The position numbers were made by a program, and so were the translations under genes. Shown here one piece after another: positions 4,174-47,903 of a stretch of 64,000 nucleotides of DNA; positions within the stretch are counted from its first letter, which is position 1; every line of letters starts with the position of its first letter. The stretch comes from an uncultured Eubacterium sp. (GTDB taxonomy: Bacteria; Bacillota; Clostridia; Lachnospirales; Lachnospiraceae). The DNA lies in contig CAMUHY010000009.1 in assembly GCA_947088865.1 (NCBI GenBank), positions 56,891 to 120,890 of the forward strand, written 5' to 3'. The notes beneath the pieces were generated by a model. It was not told where the DNA came from and did not search any database. It saw only the letters and a list, made by a program, of their open reading frames with translations.

Positions 4174-5550
4174 TTATAATTCAACTTTAGGCAGACCTGC
4201 AAATCCAACAGCAAGGTCATCTTCCGTAGGAATATAATCATCCATTAAGCCGTCATTAAATTTTTGGTAAGCAACCAAATCAAAATAGCCAGTTCCTGTA
4301 AGTCCAAAAACAATCGTTTTGTCTTCGCCGCTTTTTTTACATTTAAGAGCTTCATCAATGGCAACTTTGATAGCGTGACTGCTTTCAGGAGCAGGAAGAA
4401 TGCCCTCCACTCTAGCAAATTGAGTAGCCGCTTTAAATACAGATGTCTGTTCAACAGAGACAGCTTCCATTAGTTTATCATCATATAATTGTGATACAAC
4501 AGAACTCATGCCATGATAGCGCAGACCGCCAGCATGATTTGATGAAGGAATAAAGCCACTGCCCAAAGTATACATTTTAGCTAATGGACATATCATACCT
4601 GTATCACAGAAATCATATGCGTAGCGTCCTCTTGTAAGGCTTGGACAGCTTGCTGGTTCTACGGCAATAAAATGATAATTCTTTTCACCGCGAAGTTTCT
4701 CGCCCATAAATGGAGAGATAAGACCGCCTAAATTAGAACCGCCGCCAGCACAACCGATAATAATATCTGGAGTGATATTATATTTGTCTAAAGCGGCTTT
4801 TGTCTCAAGACCAATAATAGATTGGTGAAGTAGTACTTGAGTGAGTACAGAGCCAAGCACATAGCGATATCCTTCTAAAGAAGTAGCCGTTTCAACGGCT
4901 TCAGAGATTGCACAGCCAAGACTGCCTGTTGTGCCTGGATGTTTTGCAAGAATTTTGCGTCCAACATTGGTTGTCTCAGAAGGCGAAGGTGTTACATTGG
5001 CCCCATAAGTACGCATAACTTCACGTCGAAATGGCTTTTGCTCATAAGAACATTTAACCATATATACTTTGCAGTCAAGACCAAAATAAGAACATGCCAT
5101 AGATAGAGCCGTTCCCCATTGACCGGCGCCCGTTTCTGTTGTCACGCCTTTTAATCCCTGTTTTTTGGCATAGTAAGCCTGAGCGATTGCGGAATTAAGC
5201 TTATGGCTTCCAGAAGTATTGTTGCCCTCAAATTTATAGTAAATTTTGGCGGGCGTATCAAGCGCTTTTTCTAAACAGTAAGCACGAACAAGCGGAGAAG
5301 GGCGATACATTTTGTAAAAGTCTTGAATTTCTATCGGAATGTCAAAATATGGTGTTGTATCATCTAATTCCTGCTGTACCAATTCATCGCAAAATATGGT
5401 TGATAGCTCAGCGGCAGTCATTGGCTTTAATGTTGCAGGATTGAGCAGAGGAGCTGGTTTATTTTTCATATCAGCTCGTACATTGTACCATTGTTTTGGC
5501 ATTTCATTTTCTTCCAAATAAATTTTGTAAGGAATTTTGTTATCAGACAT
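4174..5550 (-). CDS. TrpB2-type tryptophan synthase beta-like PLP enzyme
   Basis: A 458-residue fold-type II PLP enzyme of the TrpB2 class, which is longer than the usual TrpB1. The PLP lysine is in NNTSGSHKLNSA, preceded by RPSPLVRA, and the phosphate-binding loop is IIGCAGGGSNLGG. TETGAGQWG is also typical. Some TrpB2 proteins make tryptophan from indole and serine without TrpA, others have unrelated jobs; no trpA, trpC or trpE is near. It sits between an oxidoreductase and an ABC importer on the same strand. Its leader (5559-5635) carries one of the five pseudoknot-type elements described below. Confidence 0.88.
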   Translation of the reverse strand: MSDNKIPYKIYLEENEMPKQWYNVRADMKNKPAPLLNPATLKPMTAAELSTIFCDELVQQELDDTTPYFDIPIEIQDFYKMYRPSPLVRAYCLEKALDTPAKIYYKFEGNNTSGSHKLNSAIAQAYYAKKQGLKGVTTETGAGQWGTALSMACSYFGLDCKVYMVKCSYEQKPFRREVMRTYGANVTPSPSETTNVGRKILAKHPGTTGSLGCAISEAVETATSLEGYRYVLGSVLTQVLLHQSIIGLETKAALDKYNITPDIIIGCAGGGSNLGGLISPFMGEKLRGEKNYHFIAVEPASCPSLTRGRYAYDFCDTGMICPLAKMYTLGSGFIPSSNHAGGLRYHGMSSVVSQLYDDKLMEAVSVEQTSVFKAATQFARVEGILPAPESSHAIKVAIDEALKCKKSGEDKTIVFGLTGTGYFDLVAYQKFNDGLMDDYIPTEDDLAVGFAGLPKVEL

Positions 5551-5558
5551 TGTTTTAT

Positions 5559-5635
5559 CCTCGTTTCTGCGCTGCTTTTATAATTAAAATTATTGTGTAA
5601 ACAAGTCTGTGATTGCAGCACGGACACAAACTTGT
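5559..5635 (-). promoter_or_regulatory. Pseudoknot-type 5' leader element, copy 1 (before trpB2-like gene)
   Basis: On the minus strand an 11-bp hairpin (arms at plus 5625-5635 and 5601-5611, one G-U pair) has a loop containing GTGCTGC (5615-5621). This pairs over seven positions with GCAGCGC at 5569-5575, just before the GAGG ribosome site and 19-20 bases before the start codon. The arrangement is shared with four other leaders in the window. Confidence 0.6.
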
Positions 5636-15172: not shown

Positions 15173-15250
15173 ACAAGTTTGTGGTTGCGCTGACTCCCCA
15201 AACTTGTAAGAACTTTTTATTTTTTAGAAAAAAGCAGCGCAGAAATGAGG
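15173..15250 (+). promoter_or_regulatory. Pseudoknot-type 5' leader element, copy 2
   Basis: A 9-bp perfect hairpin ACAAGTTTG/CAAACTTGT (15173-15181, 15199-15207) encloses TGCGCTG (15186-15192), which is exactly complementary to CAGCGCA (15235-15241). The GAGG ribosome site follows at 15247-15250 and the ATG at 15257. Confidence 0.65.
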
Positions 15251-15256
15251 TTTAGT

Positions 15257-15922
15257 ATGAGAGTTACAACACAGATGTTAAATATGGCAGCAATGAAGGC
15301 TGGTCTTCCAATTCACCGCAGTACTTTATTAGATTATTTAGATTCAAACAAAGGGGCAGGTTCTTTAAATGATGTCTTGCAGTCGAAAGCAAGCGCTTCA
15401 TTAAATCATGCAAATAAATCAAAATATGAAAAGATAGAAAAAACAGCCGATAAGTTAAATAAACAAGCTGAATTATTTGCGGACAGCGAAAAGAATGGCA
15501 TGTTTGATAAGGCAAAAGAAAGCAATGATACTTCTAAGATTTGTAAAAATGTAGAAGATTTAGTAAATAATTACAATGACCTTCTTGATAATATGCAAAA
15601 GGATTCTGGCGCATTAAATCTATTTTATTGTCAGGGATTAAAAGATATTATAGAAGAAAATAAAGAAGATTTAAAAGAAATTGGTATTTCTGTAAAAGGC
15701 GATGGACATATGGTGATTGACAAGGATAAGTTAAAGGCAGCTTCTTGTGATTCCTTAGAAAAAGTACTTGGAGGGAAGGATTCGTTTACTCAAAAATTAG
15801 CATTTGTATCATCAAGAATATCGGATAATGCTTATGCAAATATACAAAATATATCAAATAATTACACATCAAATGCCAATACAATAGAAAGTTATTTGAG
15901 TAAATTTAACTTTTATGGCTAA
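15257..15922 (+). CDS. Hypothetical protein with flagellar hook/cap-like ends
   Basis: A 221-residue helical protein. The start at 15257 is preferred to the in-frame ATG at 15245, because the latter contains the GAGG that serves as ribosome site. The N-terminus MRVTTQMLN resembles the start of FlgL-type junction proteins, and the C-terminal YANIQNISNNYTSNANTIES resembles the end of FliD/filament-associated proteins. The similarity is weak and judged by eye. A secreted, flagellin-like or flagellum-exported protein is possible. No other flagellar gene is in the window. Its leader holds a pseudoknot-type element. Confidence 0.55.
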   Translation: MRVTTQMLNMAAMKAGLPIHRSTLLDYLDSNKGAGSLNDVLQSKASASLNHANKSKYEKIEKTADKLNKQAELFADSEKNGMFDKAKESNDTSKICKNVEDLVNNYNDLLDNMQKDSGALNLFYCQGLKDIIEENKEDLKEIGISVKGDGHMVIDKDKLKAASCDSLEKVLGGKDSFTQKLAFVSSRISDNAYANIQNISNNYTSNANTIESYLSKFNFYG

Positions 15923-29113: not shown

Positions 29114-29163
29114 TCAAACATGTATTATTGAAGAGAAGAATAATTGTAAAATGTGATGTCTTG

Positions 29164-29226
29164 TTTTGTATCTGTGGCGCTGTTTGATACAAAATAATTT
29201 GGGTTGAAAGCAGCGCAGAAATGAGG
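29164..29226 (+). promoter_or_regulatory. Pseudoknot-type 5' leader element, copy 3
   Basis: Perfect 9-bp hairpin TTTTGTATC/GATACAAAA (29164-29172, 29186-29194). The loop contains GCGCTG (29177-29182), complementary to CAGCGC (29211-29216), which is directly followed by AGAAATGAGG and the ATG at 29232. It lies inside the operon, so it could set ligase translation separately. Confidence 0.65.
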
Positions 29227-36872: not shown

Positions 36873-37445
36873 TTAATGTTCCATAAAACCAGACATCATA
36901 CAGCCTCCTGCGGCACCACAAGATAATACTTCATTGATATTGTTAAATGAGATGCCCCCAATGGCATATACAGGCATATGGACAGTTTGAACAACCTCTT
37001 TAAGAAACGGTAATCCTTTTCCTGCAAGACCAGGCTTACAGTTTGTTTTATATATATTCCCAGCAAATATATAATGACAGCCAAATTGTTTGGCAAGAAG
37101 GGCTTGTTCAATAGAATGAACAGAAGTTCCCAGCATAGTAATTGAAGATAGCATATTGTCAGATGGAAGAATAGTTGACAATATAGAAATTGGCAAGTGA
37201 ATATAAGGATGTTCAAGGACATGCGCTGCTTCTGTATAGTTGTGCAGAATAAGCGTTGTGTCCTCTTTTTTGCATATTTGCAGAACATTTTTTGCTAATG
37301 CAATATATTCTTCTAAGGACAAGTCCTTTTCTCTTAGCACAATGGCTTTTGGGTGAAGCTGTGCGATATGTTTAATCTGCTGTAAATAATCTTCTTTTTT
37401 ACATAAATGACGATTGGTTATAGCAATAAAATGATTATAATTCAT
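36873..37445 (-). CDS. ThiE/TenI-family thiamine phosphate synthase-like protein
   Basis: A 190-residue TIM-barrel protein. IAITNRHLC at strand 1, AIVLREKDLSLEEY, LHNYTEAA, LGTSVHSIEQA, YIFAGNIYKTNCKPG and PVYAIGGISFNNI give the ThiE/TenI order. The short form lacking some ThiE substrate residues suggests TenI-like or a variant ThiE; other thi genes are absent nearby. Its 125-base leader is exceptional: a repeated MLRFGME motif, a 10-bp hairpin and a pseudoknot-type element in succession. No TPP riboswitch is visible. Confidence 0.82.
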   Translation of the reverse strand: MNYNHFIAITNRHLCKKEDYLQQIKHIAQLHPKAIVLREKDLSLEEYIALAKNVLQICKKEDTTLILHNYTEAAHVLEHPYIHLPISILSTILPSDNMLSSITMLGTSVHSIEQALLAKQFGCHYIFAGNIYKTNCKPGLAGKGLPFLKEVVQTVHMPVYAIGGISFNNINEVLSCGAAGGCMMSGFMEH

Positions 37446-37452
37446 AAAAATT

Positions 37453-37515
37453 CCTCATTTCTGCGCTGCTTTTTGCGCATAAGCAACTTTGTGTCAAGCA
37501 ACGCACAGACACAAA
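37453..37515 (-). promoter_or_regulatory. Pseudoknot-type 5' leader element, copy 4 (before ThiE-like gene)
   Basis: On the minus strand a perfect 8-bp hairpin (plus 37508-37515 and 37488-37495) has a loop with TGCGTTGCT (37497-37505). It pairs over nine positions, one G-U, with AGCAGCGCA (37462-37470), immediately before the ATGAGG ribosome site. Confidence 0.65.
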
Positions 37516-37520
37516 TTGTG

Positions 37521-37544
37521 GTGTGAAAAATTTATTTTTCACAC
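37521..37544. repeat. 10-bp palindromic hairpin in ThiE-like leader
   Basis: GTGTGAAAAATTTATTTTTCACAC is a 10-bp stem with a four-base loop. It lies between the MLRFGME motif and the pseudoknot element and lacks the T run of a terminator. Confidence 0.5.
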
Positions 37545-37570
37545 TAATCCTCCATTCCGAAGCGTAGCAT
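37544..37570 (-). repeat. Repeated leader motif (MLRFGME), copy 2
   Basis: Minus-strand short reading frame ATG CTA CGC TTC GGA ATG GAG GAT TAG. Twenty of its first 21 bases equal the ecfA1 leader at 12039-12059, the one difference being synonymous. The remaining gap to 37838 shows no gene. Confidence 0.5.
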
Positions 37571-37838
37571 AGGAATTGTGCAATAGAAAAAACTGTTAAA
37601 ATAATTGTAAAGTCAATTTCTATTACTGCATCAAGCCTTATTTATGATATTTAGTATAAATAGGCAGTAAATTGGTTTGTAGATAATAGTATAATACATT
37701 TTTGGTAATTATTGAATGAAAAAATAAATTGTGCTAAAATACTCACAGTTTTGTCAAAGTCTAAATGGCTTATGCTAAAGTGATAATAATGCTATTTGTA
37801 AATTTTTGCTAAAAGACATTTGAGAATAGGAGGAACAT

Positions 37839-47024: not shown

Positions 47025-47053
47025 TGGATATAAAAAGTATTTTATAATATCAG

Positions 47054-47133
47054 TTTGCGTCCGCGATGTTGTCGCAAATAATGCAGAAAAATAGCTGTTA
47101 AATTAGAATAATGAAAGCATCGCAGAAATGAGG
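47054..47133 (+). promoter_or_regulatory. Pseudoknot-type 5' leader element, copy 5 (covariant)
   Basis: Perfect 6-bp hairpin TTTGCG/CGCAAA (47054-47059, 47073-47078); its loop has GCGATG (47063-47068), exactly complementary to CATCGC (47118-47123). In the other copies these are GCGCTG and CAGCGC, so both strands have changed together. AGAAATGAGG and ATG at 47139 follow. Confidence 0.7.
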
Positions 47134-47138
47134 AGAAT

Positions 47139-47903
47139 ATGAAACAAGCACTTGAAGTAAAAGATTTATGTAAAACATATATCACCAATAAAAGACAGAA
47201 TAATGTATTAAAAAATGTATCTTTTTCCATAGAAAAAGGAGAAATGGTGGCAGTTATGGGACCTTCAGGTTCAGGAAAATCAACGCTTTTATACTGTGTG
47301 TCCAGCATGGATAAACCAACAGCGGGAAAAGTTGTTTTGTATGATAAGGTAATGACTGATTTATCTGAAAATGAAATGTCGGATTTAAGATTAAATGAAA
47401 TGGGATTTATCTTTCAACAGATGCATATGTTAAAAAATTTAACGATTATGGATAATATTTTGCTGCCAGCATATCAGTCAAAAAACAAAAGCAGAAGCAG
47501 GGCTGAAATTAATACATATTGCCGAGAGCTTATGCGTAAGCTATCCATCAGTGAGATTGCAGGAAATGACATAACAGAAGTCTCTGGCGGACAGCTTCAA
47601 AGAGCTTGTATATGCAGAAGTTTAATTAATAAGCCGCAAATTATTTTTGCGGATGAGCCGACGGGAGCCTTAAATCACAGTGCTTCACAAGATGTAATGG
47701 AAGAATTAAACAAGATAAATAAAGAGGGAAGTACAATTATGCTGGTAACACATGACAGAACGGTTGCATCAAAGTGTGGGAGAGTGATATATATTGAAGA
47801 TGGAACGATAAAGGGGGAACTTGTGCTTGAAAAAAATGAAAAAAGAGATGGAAAGGAACGAGAACGAAAAGTAAATCAATGGTTATCGGATATGGGTTGG
47901 TAG
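47139..47903 (+). CDS. ABC transporter ATP-binding protein (MacB/BceA type)
   Basis: A 254-residue ATPase of the MacB-like family that pairs with FtsX permeases. Walker A GPSGSGKST, VSGGQLQRACICRSL signature, Walker B IIFADEPTGAL and LVTHDRTVASKC. It lies 114 bp after the permease; the leader holds pseudoknot copy 5. The end is one base from the response regulator start. Confidence 0.93.
   Translation: MKQALEVKDLCKTYITNKRQNNVLKNVSFSIEKGEMVAVMGPSGSGKSTLLYCVSSMDKPTAGKVVLYDKVMTDLSENEMSDLRLNEMGFIFQQMHMLKNLTIMDNILLPAYQSKNKSRSRAEINTYCRELMRKLSISEIAGNDITEVSGGQLQRACICRSLINKPQIIFADEPTGALNHSASQDVMEELNKINKEGSTIMLVTHDRTVASKCGRVIYIEDGTIKGELVLEKNEKRDGKERERKVNQWLSDMGW

Follow-up and report, generated by a model that had tools for sequence, protein, structure and literature searches.

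Leaders in a Lachnospiraceae genome that appear to be copies of a small dispersed element placed between the Shine-Dalgarno sequence and the start codon

Five leaders in a 64,000-nucleotide stretch of DNA from an uncultured Eubacterium sp. (the window) probably represent a small, dispersed, MITE-like non-coding element of ~100-130 nt. We favor, with moderate confidence, the reading that this element enters the gap between the Shine-Dalgarno sequence (SD) and the start codon of a gene and supplies an SD of its own, its pseudoknot being kept for translation. The layout is a hairpin (P1) with a GC-rich loop, an A/T-rich linker ranging from a few to more than 60 nt, an arm complementary to the loop, the SD block AGAAATGAGG, 5-7 nt, and the start codon. 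The block, which we take to be one base off the canonical extended SD, lies after the arm and directly 5' of the start codon; copy 1 has the variant AGAAACGAGG. Complete copies also contain a second palindrome, P0, just 5' of P1, which lay beyond the original prediction. All five predicted leaders are present, each with hairpin, complementary loop, A/T-rich linker, and arm plus SD before a start codon. The loop motif proposed for them, GCGNTG, fails for copy 1, where the loop reads GTGCTG. Their features are listed below with E values from R1, a covariance model built from 48 sequences.

5548-5635, minus strand: copy 1, whole, start codon included (R1, E 6.9e-14)
5601..5635, minus strand: copy 1, P1 hairpin with 11-bp stem and loop TCCGTGCTGCAAT
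5559..5575, minus strand: copy 1, pseudoknot 3' arm GCAGCGCAGA and SD AACGAGG
5548-5550, minus strand: copy 1, start codon of a PLP-dependent TrpB-like gene (Pfam PALP)
15173-15259, plus strand: copy 2, whole, start codon included (R1, E 3.5e-14)
15173..15207, plus strand: copy 2, P1 hairpin, its loop carrying TTGCGCTGAC
15234..15255, plus strand: copy 2, 3' arm GCAGCGCAGA, SD AATGAGG and spacer
15257-15259, plus strand: copy 2, start codon
29161-29234, plus strand: copy 3, whole, start codon included (R1, E 3.7e-15)
29161-29197, plus strand: copy 3, P1, then linker, arm GCAGCGCAGA and SD AATGAGG
Plus strand, downstream of these: copy 3, ATG of an AMP-binding ligase gene
37443-37558, minus strand: copy 4, including P0 and upstream SD
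37443-37515, minus strand: copy 4 (young), part from P1 to ATG (R1, E 3.3e-19)
37488-37515, minus strand: copy 4, P1
5' end at 37470, minus strand: copy 4, arm and SD AGCAGCGCAGAAATGAGG, then ATG of a TMP-synthase (ThiE)-like gene
37521-37544, minus strand: copy 4, P0 hairpin GTGTGAAAAATAAATTTTTCACAC, left part of the element
37545-37558, minus strand: copy 4, upstream SD GGAATGGAGGATTA ahead of the element
47053-47141, plus strand: copy 5, whole, start codon included (R1, E 7.2e-8)
Plus strand, within copy 5: P1 GTTTGCG-loop-CGCAAAT, linker, arm GCATCGCAGA, SD AATGAGG, and ATG of an ABC-transporter ATPase gene

On the window, R1 separated the five copies (E = 3e-19 to 7e-8) from the next-best match (0.07); its training set took in copies 1, 2 and 3 and left out copies 4 and 5. 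In copy 2, an ATG at 15245 sits within AGAAATGAGG, in frame with the true start at 15257, and ORF callers can mistake it for the start, as one ORF call here did.

The leaders are highly repeated in the window's own 3.29-Mb genome (G000; other G numbers denote comparison genomes). The 16-mer CANCGCAGAAAYGAGG, with up to 2 mismatches, occurs 139 times versus 5 for the reversed pattern. R1 gave 120 matches at E<=0.001 and at least 142 at E<=1, the latter count, from 150 scored of 3073 first-look candidates, being perhaps low. An ORF start follows in 99 of the best-scoring 104 of these 142 matches (96 ATG, 2 GTG, 1 TTG), and among the 99 its distance from the SD end of the model is 6 nt in 53 and 5-7 nt in 86. 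At the low-scoring end of the 104, matches such as C22:15044 and C3:216990 are probably spurious. The EF-Ts (tsf) site at C3:131219 was not counted: the match is weak, and its SD end is separated from the true EF-Ts start by ~50 nt. At 24 of the 45 sites that have 1 kb or more of upstream sequence, an open stretch of 80 codons on the same strand ends within 150 nt upstream, and operon-internal and leading positions thus both seem to occur.

The genes downstream were expected to be unrelated, and the families that were checked bear this out. They comprise 29 different proteins among 98 with ORFs of at least 60 codons, and have no common pathway or theme. For the window copies the families are TrpB-like, FliD_C (weak), AMP-binding, TMP synthase and ABC ATPase. 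Elsewhere they include L20, RecA, a GyrA/ParC-type topoisomerase subunit, MetK and EF-Ts (the doubtful site), along with NrdG, DeoB, a LysR regulator, GlmS, RadA, NadA, IspD, CoaBC, CoaD, TrpB, YhbY, YajC, MinE, PyrF, Nfo, GpmI and RmlA; TrpF and ScpA fell below cut-offs (those of NCBIfam for ScpA).

Covariation in many copies supports the predicted P1 hairpin and loop-arm pairing. In a test independent of the model, at least 114 loci were retrieved from other genomes with nothing but the exact 17-mer GCAGCGCAGAAATGAGG, one being dropped for its Ns. A stem of at least 6 bp, with 7 or more of 8 pairs formed between its loop and the arm, was found in 69 of 113 loci, versus 1.5 expected from shuffled upstream sequence, and 44 missed this strict criterion. 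All 113 had a start-like codon 3-14 nt past the GG, a count made without a control. When the first 30 loci of G000 were fetched by the 3' block only, 23 carried the hairpin (0.35 expected). Among 68 aligned copies, 90% of 542 P1 cells were paired, both sides had changed in 6 of 8 pairs, and none of 500 shuffles reached any of five measures; P1 and arm conservation is partly search-selected because copies were found with models that contain both. The loop-arm score of 161 copies from seven genomes (101 from G000, 20 from G007, 16 from G020, 11 from G015, 9 from G021, 3 from G114 and 1 from G005) was 19.85 versus 17.47 (sd 0.18) after shuffling, with 0 of 1000 shuffles reaching it.

Within single genomes, shuffles reached the own loop-arm score in 0/500 trials for G000 and 0/2000 for G020; G015 and G021 beat their shuffles weakly (106/2000 and 110/2000). 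Pairing did not exceed shuffles in the 20 copies of G007 (716/2000), nor in the 46 G000 copies above 60 bits, many of which are near-identical (720/2000). The loop/arm code differs by genome, reading GCGYTGC/GCAGCGC in G000, GCGCAC/GTGCGC in its congener G007, and GCGCTGCC/GGCAGCGC in G015 and G021. Compensatory change is also found inside G000, where copy 5 of the window has GCGATG/CATCGC and a second code change, TACGC/GCGTA, occurs at C1:220487. The claim of a hairpin with a loop-to-leader pseudoknot is thus sustained by both the loop-arm shuffles and the two-sided changes in P1, and the pseudoknot adjoins the SD as had been proposed. By eye, the linker may contain a small hairpin of its own, of variable length (AAAACAAAA..TTTTGTTTT or AAGAAC..GTTCTT; L008, L022 and C17:55767). 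One G000 locus (L012, C2:261363) has, also by eye, a P1 unlike that of the family, GATATGC/GCATATC, with the same arm and SD; R1 misaligns it.

P0 takes the forms GTGTGAAAAATAAATTTTTCACAC, GGTTGAAAATTAAAATTTTCAACC and GAGTGAAAGATTTTTCAAATCTTTCACTC, and by eye its stems are compensatory between subtypes and genera. The listed forms are intact in 24 of the best 104 G000 copies. All 24 have a purine-rich, SD-like tetramer within the 18 nt before P0 (14.4 expected from shuffled flanks), and GGAG or GAGG occurs there in 21 of 24 (7.0 expected). A pattern search for P0 in G000 matched the longer variant only, and its 10 matches are no census. A remnant of the P0 3' strand is readable by eye in many other G000 copies. 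Most copies in this genome have lost P0 while P1, the loop-arm pairing, arm and SD persist, which suggests that the persisting parts are probably kept for translation.

Orthologous sites in relatives point to insertion. At the rpmI-rplT junction, 17 of 19 genomes with upstream sequence have a native SD and ATG, for example GAAGGAGGAATATAAA-ATG. G000 instead reads AAAAGGAGGAGTATCA, then P0, P1, linker and arm, then GAGGGAAAAA-ATG, and its left flank AAAAGGAGGAGTATCA matches the GAAGGAGGAATATAAA that stands ahead of the ATG in congeners. G020 carries a P0-less copy at rplT; the two rplT copies, L265 (G000, with P0) and L278 (G020, without), are either independent insertions or an old shared copy. 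G000 alone has the element at trpB among 19 genomes (18 congener loci without) and at trpF among 18 (17 congener junctions without); the trpF junction of G011 comprised 35 nt only, and alternative starts were chosen in a few genomes. The ThiE ortholog of window copy 4 had no leader in 16 congener loci. A scan of the rplT, trpF, trpB and ThiE loci for the arm-SD motif, allowing 4 mismatches, gave junction matches in G000 and at G020 rplT only; other matches were a copy 1.4 kb upstream of G007 ThiE and three 4-mismatch matches elsewhere. In G007, a fresh copy (L308) is nested, by eye, in an older, decayed one, between the SD of the latter and the ATG. As to target-site duplication, the 4-nt left and right spacers agree more often than shuffles (8/5000, 14 copies), an agreement that subfamily structure could cause, and the spacers at rplT differ. 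At the junctions compared with relatives, it therefore appears from sequence comparison that the cassette went in between the ribosome-binding site originally present and the start codon. Of the options first raised, a mobile regulatory cassette is the one that these sites favor, being empty in congeners at rplT, trpF and trpB with the SD kept upstream of the element.

For the loop-arm duplex, the median over 72 copies was predicted at about -13.5 kcal/mol. When the arm is kept out of the folding, as it would be in the pseudoknot, the median unpaired value of the SD core in these copies was 0.58 versus 0.52; the core is about as free, so the pseudoknot is not predicted to mask the SD through base pairing. 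This modeling does not point to a simple SD-sequestering switch, and the pseudoknot may act sterically or keep the GC-rich loop and arm from other partners. Eight ortholog pairs of G015 and G021, free of indels, have upstream flanks 90% and coding starts 95% identical. Differences numbered 3/80 in the arm, 2/64 in the SD, 2/80 in the P1 5' strand, 6/104 in the loop and 18/97 in the linker, while the P1 3' strand varied as much as the linker (14/80). The arm, loop and SD having changed less than the linker, selection seems to act on them after insertion, both members of each pair having been found with the model. The one-base departure of AGAAATGAGG from the canonical form raised the idea of an altered 16S anti-SD, a natural orthogonal ribosome. 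The pattern GATCACCTCNTTTCT for the 16S 3' end, canonical form included, had no match in the 22 genus genomes, whose assemblies seemingly lack the rRNA ends.

Under the reading that we favor, the element would land between the existing SD and spacer of a gene and its start codon, with P0 serving mobility. The pseudoknot would present the new SD to the ribosome: the GC-rich loop and arm would be prevented from folding elsewhere, and the new SD would stand apart from the upstream one. Translation of the host gene would thus continue, with initiation now, we infer, at the new SD. The strength of P1 and of the pseudoknot would set the level of translation. By supplying its own ribosome site the element would be nearly harmless even before essential genes, and we propose that it spreads for this reason.

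A regulon would account for the same leaders if a lineage-specific RNA-binding protein or sRNA read P1, the loop or AGAAATGAGG, switched about 100 genes, and the leaders had spread because they are useful. P1 TTTGTG/CACAAA and AGAAATGAGG are conserved beyond the needs of pairing, although search-selected; P1, arm and SD outlast the decay of P0; and start-codon-proximal repeats in Beggiatoaceae have been interpreted likewise in the part of that report consulted (PMC4679880). We nevertheless regard a regulon as rather unlikely: the 29 checked proteins, core genes recA, gyrA and rplT included, have no functional theme, the loop-arm sequences vary between congeners, and no factor is known, none having been sought.

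The upstream SD could alternatively initiate at an NTG-AAA in P0, translation through P1 then unfolding the pseudoknot and coupling the main gene. A paper seen in part deals with a Firmicute in which SDs are extended and uORFs exert control (PMC13009471). Complete copies do have an SD, spacer and [G/T/A]TG AAA start at their left end, and by eye some frames stop at the TGA within AGAAATGAGG (L067, L112 and L130). Such coupling is quite improbable, since the native site already explains the upstream SD and P0 with its start is gone from most G000 copies. Moreover, the start lies 27, 28, 29 or 33 nt from P1 by subtype (by eye), a variation that changes frame, peptide and stop position. A uORF with a conserved peptide was rejected on the differing frames of the subtypes, judged by eye.

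An immobile leader, inherited from a Lachnospiraceae ancestor and since retained by some species but not by others, is very improbable. It would fit the presence of the element in many genera of the family, the orthologous copies common to G015 and G021, and its occurrence at rplT in both G000 and G020, as an older common leader. Against it stand the rplT, trpF and trpB sites, empty in nearly all congeners read, the near-identical copies with intact P0 before unrelated genes, and the nested copy in G007. A 320-kb sample of the zero-copy genome G002, with 284 ORF starts, likewise contained no enriched leader word comparable to that of the window; a generic hairpin and pairing scan of G002 was strict, catching 2 of the 5 window copies, so this zero rests mainly on the k-mer comparison.

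In preQ1, SAM-II and rpsO/S15 leaders, as in the element, the loop of a hairpin base-pairs at the SD or beside it; these leaders precede one or a few related genes per genome and have a conserved core, with the SD usually within the fold. A metabolite riboswitch of a new class, an RNA thermometer or a Mg2+ sensor would fit a compact H-type pseudoknot by the SD, as in several known riboswitches, and the lack of an Rfam match, but is barely tenable given about 100 copies before unrelated genes of many protein classes in one genome, none detected in several congeners (R1 found nothing in 10 of 22 genus genomes), a pairing core that differs between species where a riboswitch would have a conserved core and a single pathway, a linker of such variable length, and an SD core that pairing does not sequester; the global ligand, temperature or Mg2+ switch first suggested is likewise not supported.

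That the leader matches no known riboswitch class agrees with Rfam 15, which gave no match at the gathering threshold in the window and four further loci; at E<=5 over these 5 loci there were 7 matches, all far below gathering scores. Known H-type pseudoknot riboswitches and ribosomal-protein leaders differ from the element in this respect. Many near-identical copies together with empty orthologous sites are the marks of a MITE or small interspersed repeat, and on its sequence features the element works like one, with no terminal inverted repeats by inspection and no transposase tied to it. Inspection of young copies revealed no terminal inverted repeats of the DDE-type MITE kind, the left end being the P0 palindrome and the right end GCAGCGCAGAAATGAGG, which are not complementary. 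Y1 transposases (IS200/IS605-derived, REP/RAYT) are not supported as the mobilizer. They do not track copy number, occurring in 13 of 22 genomes and not in G020, and none of the scanned Y1 flanks contained P0 (all four places in G000, three in G007 and one in each of eight other genomes); for P1 there was one 3-mismatch match, in G006. In G007, an arm-SD copy with one mismatch (L374, contig C124, position 258) precedes a gene; a Y1 transposase-like gene lies 1.2 kb downstream, beyond another ORF. A phage origin was rejected, the exact 17-mer GCAGCGCAGAAATGAGG having 0 matches in viral_contigs.

Small repeats known from bacteria insert in intergenic regions, and most are regarded as neutral or harmful; the RU/ERIC-type repeats of enterobacteria, of another lineage and sequence, are not known to be targeted to start codons. 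No description of the element was found among the open-license papers listed for the exact 17-mer GCAGCGCAGAAATGAGG (none) or for general terms. In the portions of the sources consulted, the nearest parallel as a structured dispersed leader is BOX of Streptococcus pneumoniae, which with RUP and SPRITE forms small dispersed structured repeats, some in 5' leaders and some nesting (PMC3049150). BOX and RUP differ in their terminal inverted repeats, their target duplications and their disruption of genes, and that portion makes no mention of placement in the SD-ATG gap or of supplying the SD of a gene (PMC3049150). In position, the TAACTGA repeat of marine Beggiatoaceae comes closest, with ~170 sets in one genome, mostly forward, directly 5' of start codons, with no functional pattern and a patchy distribution across taxa (PMC4679880, in part). 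It differs in being made of direct heptamer repeats lying across the expected ribosome site, mostly without an SD, and the portion consulted mentions no hairpin or pseudoknot (PMC4679880). RU/ERIC-type repeats are alike as mobile intergenic sequences of ~100-170 bp (PMC2759123, in part), and among the classes of a published ncRNA survey is one for 'mobile/repeat sequence candidates', "Lachnospir-" being absent from the main text of that survey (PMC11109978).

Further copies with conserved pairing were found by covariance-model search not only in G000 but in Lachnospiraceae relatives. R1 copy numbers in the 12 genus genomes with matches were 120, 64, 29, 26, 23, 6, 4, 2, 2, 2, 1 and 1. These are lower bounds, since a broader model, R2, lifted G005 from 6 to 22. 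Across the family, own genome included, copies were found in 20 of 120 genomes with R1 under strict filters and in 11 of 40 with R2. A phylum sample, in which 21 candidates were scored per genome, gave matches at E<=1e-4 in 2 of 249 genomes, namely G000 and one single-match genome of another family. Of the at least 114 genome_contigs loci with the 17-mer, 80 are known by title, most being Lachnospiraceae or unplaced Clostridiales/Eubacteriales and a few titled otherwise.

A wider claim, which we advance tentatively as a real possibility, is that of a new class of mobile element targeting translation starts, with SD-ATG insertion, a replacement ribosome site, a co-evolving pseudoknot, lineage-specific codes, and about 100 genes rewired, core genes included. 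If so, ~120 copies in a 3.3-Mb genome would affect perhaps 4% of genes, the genes themselves being uncounted. The cassette before rplT, recA, gyrA, metK and trp genes would then amount to an experiment that nature has repeated, a rewriting of translation initiation, and element-free orthologs offer the comparison at the genes examined. It also raises the question of how a piece of DNA locates the handful of bases that separate a Shine-Dalgarno sequence from a start codon; targeting could proceed via mRNA or the initiating ribosome rather than a DNA motif. For many gut Lachnospiraceae, the annotation of start positions and leader RNAs may have to be revised.

A second repeated leader, with the sequence ...CAATTCCTACGCTACGCTTCGGAATGGAGG (a small hairpin, then its own SD), is visible by eye at 37545-37580 on the minus strand of the window and upstream of the G000 copies at C4:31311, C4:129614, C18:71713 and C7:15743. 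Young copies seem to be inserted into this leader, which is perhaps another family of start-site cassettes.
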